NCBI GenBank assembly: GCA_903824505.1
Contig: CAIJXG010000056.1
Location: 1 to 33,528 of the forward strand
Direction of reading: 5' to 3'
Source of the DNA: an uncultured Pseudomonadota bacterium
Lineage (GTDB): Bacteria > Pseudomonadota > Alphaproteobacteria > UBA9219
DNA length: 33,528 bases
This document shows positions 1,263-29,066 of this stretch, one piece after another. Under the pieces are notes generated by a model. That model worked only from the letters and a program-made list of their open reading frames with translations. It was not told where the DNA came from and made no database searches. A program made the position numbers and the translations under genes. The number at the start of each line of letters is the position of its first letter. Within the stretch, counting starts at the first letter, position 1.

Positions 1263-1567
1263 CTTTCTCTCCATTTGTTTTGATTTACGATTCCGATCTT
1301 TCTGCGCACACGACAATCCGTTGCCTCACGCGGAGGTCATGCGGACTCGCGGTTCCTTTGCAGGAAGAGCGGGACACTTCAATTATTTTGGGGGGAGGCG
1401 TCTCAAAAGGGACGCGCGCAAAAACGAGGCGGCTTTACCGCCAGCAGGACTTCCAAGACAGAAGGAAAGATGCGTTATCGTTTCTCATCCGTCCTTTGTA
1501 TCATGATCAAATTGTTTTTGTCAAATTTTTTTTTGCAATTTTTTTGCAACAATCCAGCAATCGGGGC
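1263..1567. other. Intergenic stretch without a recognisable gene
   Basis: I see no coding frame with family resemblance here. The last part (about 1505-1556) is strongly T-rich on the plus strand, with two runs of T separated by short GCAA words. It leads directly into the palindromic repeat starting at 1568. It may be remnant DNA upstream of the broken oxidoreductase gene. Confidence 0.4.
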
Positions 1568-1746
1568 GATTCAGTAAAATGACAGAACGTGACTCAAAAA
1601 CAGTCCTCATCCTGTTGAAAAACTGTATCCATTGCGCGCGATAGTGAACCCATGAGTCAAAAGTTCCAACGCATTACAGAGCCATGCCCTGTGCGTGACT
1701 CTTCTGCCGCGCCGCAAATCCCCGCAAAAGCGGGGCATGGGATGAC
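1568..1746 (+). repeat. Palindromic repeat, copy A (degenerate)
   Basis: The copy begins with the leader GATTCAGTAAAATGACAG, shared with copies D and E. An AGCGATAG-type arm (here degenerate) follows, ending at GAGTC (1654-1658), then a 38-nt spacer, then GACTC (1697-1701). The GCCGCGC-type arm comes next, with a terminal hairpin CCCCGC-AAAA-GCGGGG at about 1720-1735. The first terminal hairpin is decayed. The copy lies between the broken oxidoreductase gene and the rpoC terminator. Confidence 0.75.
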
Positions 1747-1837
1747 GCGGAAAGGTTGTTTTTAAAAGACAAAATGGTGCGCGGCTACAGAAGTATATAT
1801 CTCCCCTGCGCTTTGAGCGCGTGCAGGGTGTCTGCAG

Positions 1838-1878: not shown

Positions 1879-6066
<4,188 letters not shown>

Positions 6067-6084
6067 TCATCCCATTCTCTCCGC

Positions 6085-6232
6085 CCGTCATTCCGGCGAA
6101 AGCCGGAATCCATCGCGAGCGATAGCGAGCATATGAGTCAATAGCCTCGACGCGTTATAAACGGTCGGCATTGTAGACTCTTATGCCGCGCAGACGCGCG
6201 GCGATGGATTCCGGCTTTCGCCGGAATGACGG
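6085..6232 (+). repeat. Palindromic repeat, copy B (perfect 32-bp terminal inverted repeats)
   Basis: The 148-bp copy lies between rpoC and the GIY-YIG gene. Its ends, 6085-6116 and 6201-6232, are perfect 32-bp inverted repeats, each holding the hairpin ATTCCGGC-GAAA-GCCGGAAT. Inside are the GCGAGCGATAGCGAGC arm ending in GAGTC (6135-6139), a 36-nt spacer, GACTC (6176-6180) and the TTATGCCGCGC arm. It is the best preserved copy in the window. Unlike copies A, D and E it lacks the GATTCAG leader. Confidence 0.9.
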
Positions 6233-6265
6233 GGGGAGAGTTCTTTTCTTAAAACTCGCCGCTCA

Positions 6266-6565
6266 TCATCCCTGAACCACATCGTTATATAAATCTCTCC
6301 ATTCAGGATTCATCCGCTCAATTAACTCAAGCTTCCAATCCCGTTTCCATTCTTTAACCGGCTTCTCCCTTACAATCGCGTCCTCAATCCGTTCGTGTAT
6401 CTCATAATACACCAAGGTCCGCACAACACTATATTTCTTTGCAAATTTACTTCCCTTTCCCGTCCTATGTTCCTCCAACCTACGAAGAAGATCGTTCGTC
6501 ACCCCCGTATAAAGCGTCCGGTATTTTCCACTCGCGAGGATATAAACAAAGCCTTCGCGTTTCAT
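6266..6565 (-). CDS. Small GIY-YIG family nuclease (YhbQ/UPF0213-like)
   Basis: The 99-residue protein is a nearly bare GIY-YIG domain. The first strand reads FVYILAS, where relatives have the GIY-like YxLxS. YTGVTNDLLRRLEEH supplies the second strand (the YIG part) with the catalytic arginine region. GKGSKFAKKY and LVYYE, then REKPVKEWKRDWKLELIE and NPEWRDLY, are typical of the small single-domain YhbQ-like group. Such proteins cut or bind DNA, but the cellular substrate of this subgroup is not settled. The gene lies inside what is normally the rpoBC operon, on the same strand. Repeats B and C flank it in opposite orientation at 33 and 16 bases. It could be cotranscribed from the rpoB promoter. 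The start at 6565 is an ATG. Confidence 0.9.
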   Translation of the reverse strand: MKREGFVYILASGKYRTLYTGVTNDLLRRLEEHRTGKGSKFAKKYSVVRTLVYYEIHERIEDAIVREKPVKEWKRDWKLELIERMNPEWRDLYNDVVQG

Positions 6566-6581
6566 AACTGACCTCCCCGCT

Positions 6582-6730
6582 CGTCATTCCGGCGAAAGCG
6601 GGAACCCATCGCCGCGTGTCCGCGCGGTACAAAAGTCCAGCCCCCTCGTCTCCAGCCAAACCTTAAGTCCAGAAGGACTCATCTGCTCGCGGTCGCTCGC
6701 GACGACTTCCCCCCGCGTGGGGGCGTGAGA
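6582..6730 (-). repeat. Palindromic repeat, copy C (degenerate, inverted relative to copy B)
   Basis: It starts with CGTCATTCCGGCGAAAGC and the CATCGCCGCG arm, then AAGTC (6633-6637, in place of GAGTC), a 38-nt spacer, and GACTC (6676-6680). The CTGCTCGCGGTCGCTCGCGA arm follows, with a terminal hairpin CCCCC-GCGT-GGGGG. Arm order is the reverse of copy B, so B and C form inverted flanks around the GIY-YIG gene. Base changes are numerous but the arm-spacer-arm geometry is kept. Confidence 0.75.
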
Positions 6731-6772: not shown

Positions 6773-9700
6773 TCACCCCACGTCCGGCAATGCCGGCACA
6801 GCCTCGTTATCCTGTTCCGGTGCGGCGAGCTTTTTCTGATCCATCTCGACATTCAGACCCAAAGAACGGAGTTCCTTGACCAGAACATTGAAGGATTCCG
6901 GCACACCGGATTCGAAATTATCCTCCCCGCGGACGATGGATTCATAGACCTTGGTACGGCCTGAGACATCGTCCGATTTGATGGTGAGCATTTCCTGCAG
7001 CGTATAGGCCGCTCCATAGGCCTCCAGCGCCCAGACTTCCATTTCTCCGAAACGTTGACCGCCGAACTGCGCCTTACCGCCCAGAGGCTGCTGGGTCACC
7101 AGCGAATAAGGCCCGATCGAGCGCGCATGGATCTTGTCGTCGACCAAATGATGGAGCTTGAGCATATAGATATACCCAACCGTCACTTTGCGGTCGAAGA
7201 TCTCACCTGTGCGACCATCGATCAGGGTCGATTGTCCCGACGTGTCCAGCCCCGCGAGCTTCAGCATGGCCTCGATATCTGATCCCCGAGCCCCATCAAA
7301 GACAGGTGTCGCGAAAGGAACACCCGGGCGGAGATTCCGCGCCAGCTCCAGTGTTTCATCGTCCGAGAGCATGGAAACGTCGCGCTTGTAGACCTCATCG
7401 CCGTAGGATTCTTTTAGCTTCGTGCGCAGGTCTGTCAGCGTGGCCTTTTTGCCCTGACGAATTTGCGACTCATAGGCTTCATAAACCGCGCCGATTTGGT
7501 GCCCAAGATTGGCCGAAGCCCATCCCAAATGGGTTTCCAGAATCTGCCCGATATTCATGCGCGAAGGCACGCCCAAAGGGTTCAGGACGATATCAACGGG
7601 TGTGCCGTCTTCCAGATATGGCATGTCCTCGATAGGAACAATACGCGAGACAACACCCTTGTTTCCATGACGACCCGCCATTTTGTCCCCGGGCTGAAGC
7701 TTGCGCTTCACGGCCACGAAGACCTTGACCATTTTCATCACGCCCGGGGGCAATTCGTCGCCGCGTTGCAGCTTCGAAACCTTGTCCTCAAACCGCTTTT
7801 TCAAGGCATTGATCTGTTCGTCATAGACTTTGCCGATGGCTTCGATCTCTTCCATCGCTTTGTCGTTTTTGACGCTGATTTGACGCCATTGACCGTGGGT
7901 GTAGCCTTCCAGAATTTCATCTGTGATCGGCTTGCCGGTCGGAAAACTCTTGGGGCCGGATTCGGCCTTGTTTCCGACCAACAAGATTTTCAACCGTGCG
8001 GAGAAGCTCCGTTCCAGAATCGCGCGTTCATCGTCGCGATCCTTGGCGAGCCGTTCGATTTCCGCCCGTTCAATGGCGATGGAGCGTTCGTCTTTATCCA
8101 CGCCGCGCCGCGAGAAAGCCCTGACTTCGACGATTGTGCCGGAAACGCCCGGGGGCAGACGCAGCGAGGTATCGCGCACATCCGCCGCCTTTTCACCGAA
8201 AATCGCGCGGAGAAGTTTTTCTTCCGGCGTCATGGGGCTTTCGCCCTTTGGCGTCACTTTGCCGATCAGAATATCGCCCGGATTAACCTCCGCGCCAATA
8301 TAGACAATGCCCGCTTCGTCGAGGTTCTTGAGCGCTTCGTCGCCGACATTCGGGATGTCGCGCGTGATTTCCTCTTGGCCGAGCTTAGTGTCGCGGGCCA
8401 TCACTTCAAAGGATTCGATATGGATCGAGGTGAAGACGTCGTCCTTGACGATACGCTCGGAGATCAGGATCGAATCTTCAAAGTTATACCCGTTCCACGG
8501 CATAAAGGCGCAGAGCACATTGCGGCCCAAAGCCAATTCGCCCAACTCGGTCGAGGGGCCGTCCGCGATGATGTCGCCCTTTTGCACGCGGTCGCCGACC
8601 CTCACAAGCGGGCGTTGCGTAATGCAGGTGCTTTGGTTCGAGCGTTGGAACTTCAAAAGATTATAGATGTCGACAGACGGCGCGGAAGAATCGGTCTCCT
8701 GATCCGCGCGGATAACGATGCGCGTCGCGTCCATCTGATCGATCACACCCGCGCGGCGAGCGACAAGCGCCACGCCGGAATCGCGGGCCACTGTGCTTTC
8801 CATCCCTGTGCCCACCAAGGGCGCATCGTTGCGCAACAATGGCACGGCCTGACGTTGCATGTTCGAGCCCATCAAGGCGCGGTTCGCATCGTCATTTTCA
8901 AGGAAAGGAATCAGCGCGGCGGCAACCGAAACGATTTGTTTCGGCGACACGTCTATAAAGTCCACGGCATCGCCGGAGACGGTAATATTTTCGCCTGCCT
9001 TGCGCACAATCACATGGTCTTGCGTAAAGTTTCCGGCCTTATCCAGCGCAGCATTCGCCTGAGCGATGGCGAATTGCCCTTCTTCCATCGCCGACAGATA
9101 GACGACTTCGGCTGTCACGCGGCCATTCTTGACGCGGCGATAGGGGCTTTCGATAAAGCCGTACGGGTTTACCCGCGCATAGGTCGCGAGCGAGCTGATC
9201 AGACCGATATTCGGGCCTTCCGGCGTTTCAATCGGACAGATACGGCCATAATGGGTCGGATGCACGTCGCGGACTTCAAAGCCTGCGCGTTCGCGCGTTA
9301 GACCGCCCGGCCCAAGGGCCGAAACGCGGCGTTTATGCGTGATTTCCGCGAGCGGATTCGTCTGATCCATAAATTGCGAAAGCTGCGAGGAGCCGAAGAA
9401 TTCGCGCACCGCGGCGGCGGCCGGTTTCGCGTTGATAAGATCGTGCGGCATGACGGTATCGATCTCAATCGAGCTCATCCGCTCGCGAATCGCGCGTTCC
9501 ATCCGCACCAAACCGATGCGATATTGGTTTTCCATCAATTCGCCGACCGAGCGCACGCGGCGGTTGCCCAGATGGTCGATATCGTCGATTTCGCCACGGC
9601 CATCCTTAAGATCGCACATGATCGACACGATCTTCAGAATGTCTTCTTTGCGGAGGACACGCACCTGATCGTCCGTCTTGAAGCCCAAGCGCGAATTCAT

Positions 9701-11044
9701 TTTCACGCGGCCAACAGGGGACAGATCATAACGATCCATCTGGAAGAACAGCGCGTTGAACAGGGCTTCGGCGGATTCAAGGGTGGGCGGCTCACCCGGA
9801 CGCATGACGCGATAGATATCGATCAAGGCTTCTTCGCGAGTCTCGTTCTTATCCGCGGCCAGCGTGTTGCGAATATAGGGGCCGACATTCACATGATCGA
9901 TTGCAAGCGTGACAATTTCCTTGATGCCCGCTTTTTCTAAAGACTCCAGCGAATCAGCGGCGATTTCATCACCCGCTTCGAATAGAACTTCGCCTGTCGC
10001 TTCATCTACAATGTCTTGAGCCAGATAATGGCCAATCAAAGATTCTGGTTGAACCAGAATTTCCTTTACACCCTGCTCGATCAACTTAGCAATTGCGCGG
10101 ACCGTCACCTTGGTTCCCAATTCAATCAGAACCTTCCCCGTCTTGGCGTCCACCAGATCTGCCAGAAGTTTCTGACCCTTGAAGGCTTCGCCGTCAAAGG
10201 CTGTCGCCCAGCCATTCTTGACGTGCTTATAGCCAATCGTGCCATAGAAGGAGCCGAGGATCTCTTCCTTCGTCATCCCCTGCACTTCCATCGGCTGCAG
10301 AGTCTTCCCTTCTTTTGTACGCTTGGCGCGGAGCTTTTCCGTTTCCGCGCTGTCCAGCGCGTACAAAAGCGAGGTCACGGGAAGCTTGCGGCGACGGTCG
10401 ATGCGCACATAAACAAGGTCTTTAGCGTCGAATTCGAAATCAAGCCATGACCCGCGATAAGGGATCACACGCGCAGCGAACAGATACTTGCCGGAAGAGT
10501 GAGTCTTGCCGCGATCATGATCAAAGAAAACGCCCGGGCTGCGATGCATCTGGCTGACGATCACGCGCTCGGTACCGTTCACGATAAAGGTGCCGTTTGC
10601 CGTCATCAAGGGCATGTCGCCCATATAAACATCTTGCTCTTTAATATCGCGGATGGATTTCAGACCCGTATTTTCCTCGACATCAAACGAGGTCAGGCGC
10701 AGCGTGACCTTCAGGGGCGCGGCAAAAGTGGCGCCGCGCTGTTGGCATTCCTCAACATCATATTTGGGTTGTTCCAGCTCATAGGACAAAAAGTCCAGAA
10801 CGGCACGGCCCGAGAAATCCGACAACGGAAAGGCGGACATCAAGACATCTTGCAGCCCCTTGCGCTCGCGCTTCGCAACGGGGATATCCATCTGAAGAAA
10901 CTCGTCCCACGAGCGACGCTGAATCTCGATGAGATTCGGCATTTCAGCGATTTCATCGATGGTTCCAAAGCTCTTGCGGATTTTCTTGCGGCCTGTGAAA
11001 GTCTTGCTTGGGTTAATGCTGATCGCTGCGCCGATGGTCGCCAT
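6773..11044 (-). CDS. rpoB: DNA-directed RNA polymerase subunit beta
   Basis: This is the beta subunit of RNA polymerase, which forms much of the catalytic cleft and the rifampicin pocket. I use the ATG at 11044 ([10 protein letters not shown]), preceded by GAGGGG, giving 1423 residues; a TTG four codons upstream is less likely. Alphaproteobacterial RpoB is usually near 1380. The rifampicin region reads [19 protein letters not shown], then [15 protein letters not shown], with serine and histidine at the usual resistance positions, so no classical resistance change is seen. [12 protein letters not shown] near the C-terminus carries conserved active-site lysines. The family-typical insertion between the beta lobes, with [10 protein letters not shown] and [13 protein letters not shown] repeats, is present. 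Upstream is fmt, not rplJ-rplL, and downstream is a GIY-YIG gene instead of rpoC. Confidence 0.99.
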
Positions 11045-11062
11045 GCTGCCCCTCAAAGCTGG

Positions 11063-12767: not shown

Positions 12768-12848
12768 GGGTATTTCTTGAAAGGTCAAAGCAGTACCACT
12801 TTCTGACAGGCCTATTCAGAGAACGAAGCTAATCGCATGAAAAATCTT

Positions 12849-13056
12849 GTCATACCGGCGAAAGCCGGTATCCATCGCCGCGCGCATGCCCCGTGCTCCG
12901 ACACGGGGTCTGCGCGGCGTAAGAGTCATTCATAAAGCATGGTTTTGTAATGCGTTGAAATTGTTGACTCATGTGCTCGCTATCGCTCGCGATGCATACC
13001 GTTTTTTAACGGTATGACGGCTATTTTTGTGTCGTGTTTTGTCGTTTTACTGAATC
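12849..13056 (-). repeat. Palindromic repeat, copy D, with leader
   Basis: Read on the minus strand it starts with the leader GATTCAGTAAAACGAC (13056-13041), then the ATCGCGAGCGATAGCGAGC arm ending in GAGTC (13 nt from the family consensus position on this strand; plus-strand GACTC at 12966-12970). A 38-nt spacer and the TTACGCCGCGC arm (plus-strand GAGTC 12923-12927) follow. Both terminal hairpins use the stem TACCG/CGGTA. The GCCGCGC arm carries an extra nested hairpin, CCCCGTG-CTCCGA-CACGGGG (12889-12908), absent from the other copies. It lies between the orphan gene and def. Confidence 0.88.
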
Positions 13057-13098
13057 GCCCTGCCTTTCTGATTTCCAAAAACCCCAAGCGTGAAACCC

Positions 13099-28827: not shown

Positions 28828-28869
28828 TGAAACAGCAATTGAAAAGGTGGGGCGTGAATAAGGCGGGAC

Positions 28870-29066
28870 GATTCAGTAAAATGACAGAATCTGCCGAAAA
28901 AAACAGCCGTCATCCCCGTGATCAACGGGGATCCATCGCCGCGCGTCTGCGCGGCATAAGAGTCCCTAAATAAGATAAATTTATCAGATGGTTAAGTTTC
29001 TGACTCAGTGTGTTCTCTATCGCTCGCGATGGATCCCCGTTGTTACGGGGACGGTATGATGGTGTG
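28870..29066 (+). repeat. Palindromic repeat, copy E, with leader and flipped body
   Basis: The leader GATTCAGTAAAATGACAG at 28870-28887 is as in copy A. Here the GCCGCGC-type arm comes first, ending at GAGTC (28960-28964), then a 37-nt spacer, GACTC (29002-29006) and the CTATCGCTCGCGATGGATC arm. This is the reverse of copies A and D relative to the leader. Both terminal hairpins use the stem CCCCG/CGGGG. It lies between the PPC-like gene and trmFO. Confidence 0.88.

Follow-up and report, generated by a model that had tools for sequence, protein, structure and literature searches.

The contig analyzed here, hereafter called the window (33,528 nucleotides in full), raises the question of what a small nuclease gene bracketed by palindromic repeats is doing between rpoB and rpoC, and whether the gene and the repeats form one system. 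The window is contig 56 of an alphaproteobacterial bin (1.9 Mb, 141 contigs). Gene calls and junction comparison placed rpoC at 1879..6045 and rpoB at 6773..11056, both on the minus strand, leaving a gap of exactly 727 bp between the rpoC start at 6045 and the rpoB end at 6773. The sole gene within the gap encodes a 99-aa GIY-YIG protein on the same strand as rpoBC (6266..6565; start at 6565, stop at 6266-6268), and a purine-rich GGGGAGG could be read from the sequence just 5' of its start codon.

The encoded protein matched Pfam PF01541 with 50.3 bits (cut-off 22.6) and met the criteria of the GIY-YIG superfamily, namely the GIY and YIG motifs and the catalytic Arg and Glu. It retains Y8, Y19, G21, R29, and E67, which are invariant in its subgroup, and the nearly invariant N86. 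The AF2 model (pLDDT 90.9) was closest to the solved folds of Slx1 (Z 7.2 over 99 residues), UPF0213, and the UvrC N-terminal domain; Z values at the Slx1 level are modest. The sequence match to 1zg2, a UPF0213/YhbQ-like protein, had an E value of 7e-11. A RAYT-like Y1 enzyme was considered and rejected, the gene being clearly GIY-YIG. Only one other GIY-YIG domain was present in the source genome, in a 651-aa ORF that we take to be UvrC.

The gene lies between repeat B (6086..6231) on its 3' side and repeat C (6582..6730) on its 5' side. Repeat B, which has dispersed copies in its own genome, is composed of two CGTC REPs head to head: B1 (6086..6112, plus strand), the 27-mer CGTCATTCCGGCGAAAGCCGGAATCCA with its tag pointing away from the gene, and B2 (6205..6231, minus strand), an identical 27-mer with its tag toward the gene. 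Both 27-mers met the criteria for CGTC REPs (CGTC or TGTC tag, AT-starting stem of 8-9 bp, short loop, CCA tail). Repeat C has a proximal REP with an imperfect stem (6582-6608) and a degenerate distal REP (~6702-6730). Complementarity was 98% between 6077-6116 and 6201-6240 and 81% between 6176-6253 and 6560-6637. Repeats without a gene were located at 12848..13019 (D; REPs 12848-12874 on the plus and 12993-13019 on the minus strand), at 28908..29062 (E; distal REP partly degenerate), and at 1564..1748 (A; a degenerate REPIN). The criterion of a head-to-head dimer was met by repeats B, D, and E, and by tag-out pairs in three related genomes (G028, G043, G045). About 15 further sites were found in the 1.9-Mb genome (30 matches when both strands and half-elements are included). 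In the window, the tags face the GIY-YIG gene, giving a REPIN-gene-REPIN layout that is the minority arrangement and was also seen in G015 and at sufB-sufC of Azospirillum lipoferum.

These results largely bear out a preliminary description made from the sequence alone. Its claims of a gap of about 727 bases holding a 99-residue GIY-YIG gene and of copies A, D, and E lacking a nuclease gene held, as did its claim that repeats B and C bracket the gene, with the refinement that each is a whole REPIN (head-to-head CGTC-tagged palindromes plus spacer) and not a single palindrome. The gene-to-repeat distances it gave as 33 bp for B and 16 bp for C are corrected to 25 bp (from the end of B) and 7 bp (from the start of C), with the repeat boundaries taken from the complementarity comparison.

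Three further observations concern the surroundings of these repeats. A 40-nt extension beginning with CGGGACGATTCAGTAAAATGACAGAA lies outside one end of A, D, and E (1564-1600, 13024-13066, and 28864-28902) and is missing from B and C, marking a longer repeat family. A short ORF at 1047-1316, near repeat A, is the beginning of a FAD-dependent oxidoreductase and is apparently truncated. On contig 127 of the same genome (2837-3011; L034/L035), a REPIN directly precedes the apparent start of an IS110-type transposase (MKEVTTIGLDLAKNVFQVHG); elements of the IS110 group adjoin REPs elsewhere.

The rpoB-rpoC junction was compared among relatives. Five genomes of the same genus carried no GIY-YIG gene there, with gaps between matched ends of 52-80 bp in G002, G003, and G004, 186 bp in G001, and 148 bp in G006, the last being filled by a gene-less REPIN. 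The only relative with a GIY-YIG gene at this junction was G015, from another genus of the same family, in which the gene lies between two REPINs. In the gene tree, the rpoBC copies of the source genome (G000) and G015 were not resolved as sisters, so one old insertion followed by losses could not be distinguished from two insertions. An ancestral shared rpoB-GIY-rpoC order was ruled out for the genus by the gene-free junctions; the G015 copy remains unexplained. Other small ORFs occupied the rpoB-rpoC gap in five relatives (L057, L062, L065, L072, and L073; 422-1103 bp), and this gap is regarded as an insertion-tolerant spot within an essential operon. In one of them (L072, from G025), a 23S-IVP-like four-helix-bundle ORF is flanked on its two sides by GTGAAAAGTGAAGAGTGAAAAG in opposite orientations, which is this layout with another small protein.

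Occupied and empty states were also seen at other orthologous sites. At nuoD-nuoE, the gene was present in G002 and G015 only, and the two nuo genes overlap or abut in most relatives. At sufB-sufC, it was present in A. lipoferum and missing from A. ramasamyi, A. oryzae, and B510, in which the flanks are 95-97% identical. At the fnrL site of Sphingobium plasmids, some records carried REP-gene-REP, two strains a single palindrome, and two neither. The single palindrome, found in TYG64 (L236) and TYG74 (L237) where L143 and others have REP-gene-REP, is symmetric and double-tagged (CGTCACCCCGGGTCAAGCCCGGGGTGACG in TYG64); it is possibly an excision scar or deletion product, or else a target site. 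No clean target-site duplication was found at sufBC, fnrL, or nuoDE, where divergence of the empty sites blurs the ends; the nuoDE copies gave a hint of repeated GTGA or CGGTGA that was not clean. At nuoD-nuoE of G015 (L283), the inverted repeat runs ~11 nt past the tags (CTCACCGTTTCGTCAT / ATGACGAAACGGTGAG) and echoes the nuoD stop region, which may possibly be a trace of the insertion mechanism.

Of 39 genomes, 29 contained relatives of the GIY-YIG protein, frequently with multiple copies per genome; the gene was missing from close neighbors and was sometimes broken. The genomes compared were mostly bins, some of them contaminated (9% in G015). For each locus, a flank score was obtained by comparing the 200 nt upstream of the gene with the reverse complement of the 200 nt downstream, with a threshold of 16. 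This threshold was reached by 51/67 loci of the relatives and by 44/77 loci from many phyla, the latter from named organisms and found by a profile search with a 5-row alignment, but by 0/113 control genes from the same loci; when flanks were swapped between loci, 7% reached it. Strict tagged REPs on both sides were found at 33/67 and 42/77 loci, respectively, and around 0/110 control genes. The controls were ORFs of at least 150 aa, longer than the GIY-YIG gene and thus not size-matched. Loci sampled later across the class reached the flank score in 16/27 and 5/10 cases. The strict flank test was missed by about one-quarter of the relatives' loci and 43% of the phylum-wide loci. A strict REP scan of whole contigs was noisy (79 found in G028, 63 in shuffled sequence), and only cognate REPs identified by eye were used.

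The flanks share a layout that is almost the same everywhere, GTCAT-hairpin-ATCC, gene, GGAT-hairpin-ATGAC; most commonly the gene lies inside a REP pair as tag-REP-gene-REP-tag, ~400 bp in all. Tags pointed outward at 59 genes and inward at 7. The named loci include Sphingomonas, Bradyrhizobium, Legionella, Massilia, Omnitrophota, Chloroflexota, Planctomycetota, Nitrospirota, and Patescibacteria, to which records of a plasmid collection add Neisseria gonorrhoeae, Aeromonas, Planktothrix, and Spirosoma. CGTC-1 REPs were present more often in genomes with a core gene (17/43, against 10/99 of those without; p 1e-4), and REP-rich genomes without a core gene also exist (49 matches in G001, 33 in G009). 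None of seven distant GIY-YIG members in the relatives had inverted flanks or REPs. Loci of other GIY-YIG subfamilies, meant as a negative control, had inverted flanks of a different palindrome in 3 of 20 further loci. In a set of 64 distinct REP 27-mers beside GIY genes, for which the tag and the ends were the only selection criteria, pairing at stem positions 3-8 was kept in 62-64 of the 64 while the bases varied at most of these positions; the stems covary, showing that the hairpins are under constraint. The two REPs of one element were more alike than REPs of different elements (25.7 vs 21.0 of 27 positions).

The extent of the duplicated piece was read from paralogues within single genomes. 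The match between L084 and L094 (79% identical) runs from CAGGCGTC to GACGCCTG with nothing beyond; similarity between L083 and L095 (72%) begins at GTCATTCC; that between L102 and L114 (83%) ends at ATGAC, with at least ~20 nt in common beyond the left tag; and the match between L081 and L116 is confined within the hairpins. Since the similarity of paralogues ends at the tags or close to them, what is duplicated is REP-gene-REP, and the first three pairs meet the transposon criterion of terminal inverted repeats around a duplicated unit. The remaining pairs were too diverged to reveal the ends of the segment.

Nuclease and palindrome also vary together. Across genera, nuclease similarity predicted flank similarity (rho 0.288); when flank assignments were shuffled within genomes, the null had a mean of 0.108 and sd of 0.049, and 0/2000 permutations reached the observed value. 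A clade with the KAGSR motif had REPs of the GTCATTGCGAG type at 7/7 loci, compared with 1/57 others, and newly sampled genomes of the class, searched with a KAGSR protein, showed these REPs at 5/6 KAGSR and 0/21 other loci (p 7e-5). This pairing was tested within the class only, because the phylum-wide loci hold no KAGSR members. A sister subfamily (RRPV...KGWSRAKKEAL), likewise intended as a negative control, was accompanied by another common palindrome, CATCCTGAG...GTCGAAGGATG, at 10/14 loci, as against 1/103 core-family loci; a random-placement control in these 2-kb loci was uninformative, with the motif on one side in 44% because a REP is in the locus. The sister-subfamily loci L368-L381 and L383 (e.g., L370, L379, and L381) lie next to CATCCTGAGCTTGTCGAAGGATG, a palindrome of wide occurrence, and are often flanked by it on both sides.

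Comparison, then, shows that the gene is bracketed by inverted CGTC hairpins and that duplication takes the REP pair and the gene as a unit. It likewise shows that nuclease clade and palindrome type correlate and that REPINs having these ends but no gene are dispersed through the same genomes. On this evidence we lean, without great assurance, toward regarding the GIY-YIG gene and the palindromes as parts of a single system. This would be a mobile element bounded by REPs, and its only gene would encode a small nuclease with specificity for the element's own palindromes; binding, cleavage, and movement are all inferred. In this view, the enzyme would recognize the extruded REP hairpin, either on the single-stranded lagging-strand template or as a cruciform, and would cut at the hairpin foot near the GTC tag. 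The cut would free the REP-to-REP segment or prime its copying into new sites, most of them between genes, such that anything between two tag-out REPs would be mobilized. Units containing the gene would be autonomous, and gene-less REPINs would be moved in trans, as is thought for REPs and RAYTs. The REPIN-gene-REPIN layout of the window, co-directional with rpoBC, is probably a later or partly immobilized arrangement.

The preliminary description had already read the locus as an autonomous unit with non-autonomous copies, and this is supported, REP-gene-REP being the usual arrangement and gene-less REPINs occurring elsewhere in the same genomes. It would have been refuted had the GIY-YIG subgroup been unassociated with the repeats in other genomes or had all relatives shared the rpoB-GIY-rpoC order, and neither proved to be the case. 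That the nuclease acts on the repeats was an inference there and is still one. Its comparison with RAYT-REP systems held for the layout, which is analogous, but the enzyme is unrelated.

The main rival, which is possible and not excluded, is homing or hitchhiking: a free-standing homing endonuclease would cut REPs and copy its own gene in by repair, the REPs being mere targets that spread otherwise. GIY-YIG is a known homing fold, the single symmetric palindrome at the Sphingobium fnrL site would suit a target site, some genomes have REPs without the gene, and the rpoBC junction of G006 holds a gene-less REPIN. Against it, no REP is present at the unoccupied sites of the Azospirillum sister species and most relatives, the two REPs of an element match each other best, and the Sphingobium palindrome is equally explicable as a deletion product of the element. 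Less probable is that REPIN movement depends on another enzyme or on host replication and repair, with the GIY-YIG gene captured as cargo. The persistence of REPs in genomes without a GIY-YIG gene and the IS110-type element beside a REPIN in the source genome speak for such a passenger; however, neither the occurrence of the same gene in many phyla nor the matching of clades to palindrome type within genomes would be expected of cargo, and no transposase class was tied to CGTC REPs by Di Nocera et al. (PMC3733652).

A host function, in which a structure-specific repair nuclease is kept near REPs for mRNA regulation or cruciform resolution without any mobility, is very improbable. The small Slx1-like fold is in its favor, and REPs often serve as RNA hairpins at gene ends; the patchy multicopy distribution, the pseudogenes, the presence or absence at orthologous sites, and the paralogous units bounded by tags are all against it. 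As to chance, REPs are common in these genomes and abundant between genes, and any small intergenic gene might therefore lie near them; this is all but excluded, since control genes of the same loci, albeit not matched in size, passed neither flank test (0/113 and 0/110).

Palindromes of the CGTC type, to which Neisseria dRS3 and some Rickettsia RPEs belong, rank with the most common repeats in bacteria. The CGTC REPs were defined by Di Nocera et al. (2013; PMC3733652), according to whom these repeats "apparently lack a dedicated transposase"; among the genes listed there as REP-decorated are "excinuclease ABC" proteins, which may or may not include small GIY-YIG genes. No link between GIY-YIG proteins and REPs was found in the literature searched, which is weak evidence given that preprints and most subscription papers were outside the search, and a 2025 REP survey makes no mention of GIY-YIG. 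By a modest margin, we favor the nuclease family of the window as the leading candidate to date for the missing enzyme that spreads CGTC repeats, with cleavage and movement again inferred; a small enzyme lying between CGTC REPs in many phyla makes the transposase question directly testable. If true, this would be a bacterial mobile element with GIY-YIG as its sole enzyme, apart from the HUH, DDE, and serine/tyrosine recombinases, and a function would be found for many genes that now carry no more than the name "GIY-YIG nuclease family protein" or "excinuclease ABC subunit C". There is as much to be said for as against a bolder reading, in which GIY-YIG nucleases would be a general, unrecognized class of REP-mobilizing enzymes, with clades (core NPxW, KAGSR, and RRPV/KGWSRAKKEAL) each having its own palindrome type (CGTC-1, GTCATTGCGAG, and CATCCTGAG, respectively) across phyla, and would lie behind much of the palindromic repeat content outside RAYT/GTAG.

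Among known systems, the repeats agree with the CGTC REPs and their head-to-head dimers, including Neisseria dRS3 (PMC3733652), in the CGTC or TGTC tag, the AT-starting stem of 8-9 bp, the loop of 4-5 nt, the CCA tail, the head-to-head arrangement, and the alphaproteobacterial bias; they differ in that no transposase was described there, whereas here a GIY-YIG gene lies between such REPs. UPF0213/YhbQ-like proteins and Slx1, a branched-DNA nuclease that in eukaryotes has the partner Slx4, are relatives in sequence and fold, but the seven distant GIY-YIG members in the related genomes lack flanking REPs. Free-standing GIY-YIG homing endonucleases share the fold, the small size, and presence or absence at orthologous sites; the elements described here differ from them in having palindromic ends and neither an intron host nor a conserved target gene. 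With RAYT/TnpA-REP systems and REPINs (IS200/IS605-like, HUH Y1), the elements share a single small nuclease gene within inverted REPs and dispersed non-autonomous REP pairs, although the gene here is usually inside the REP pair. The defining tests of a RAYT are failed, the fold being GIY-YIG instead of HUH Y1 and the tags CGTC instead of GTAG, and yet, by analogy and with movement inferred, the element would resemble RAYT-REP in its working.
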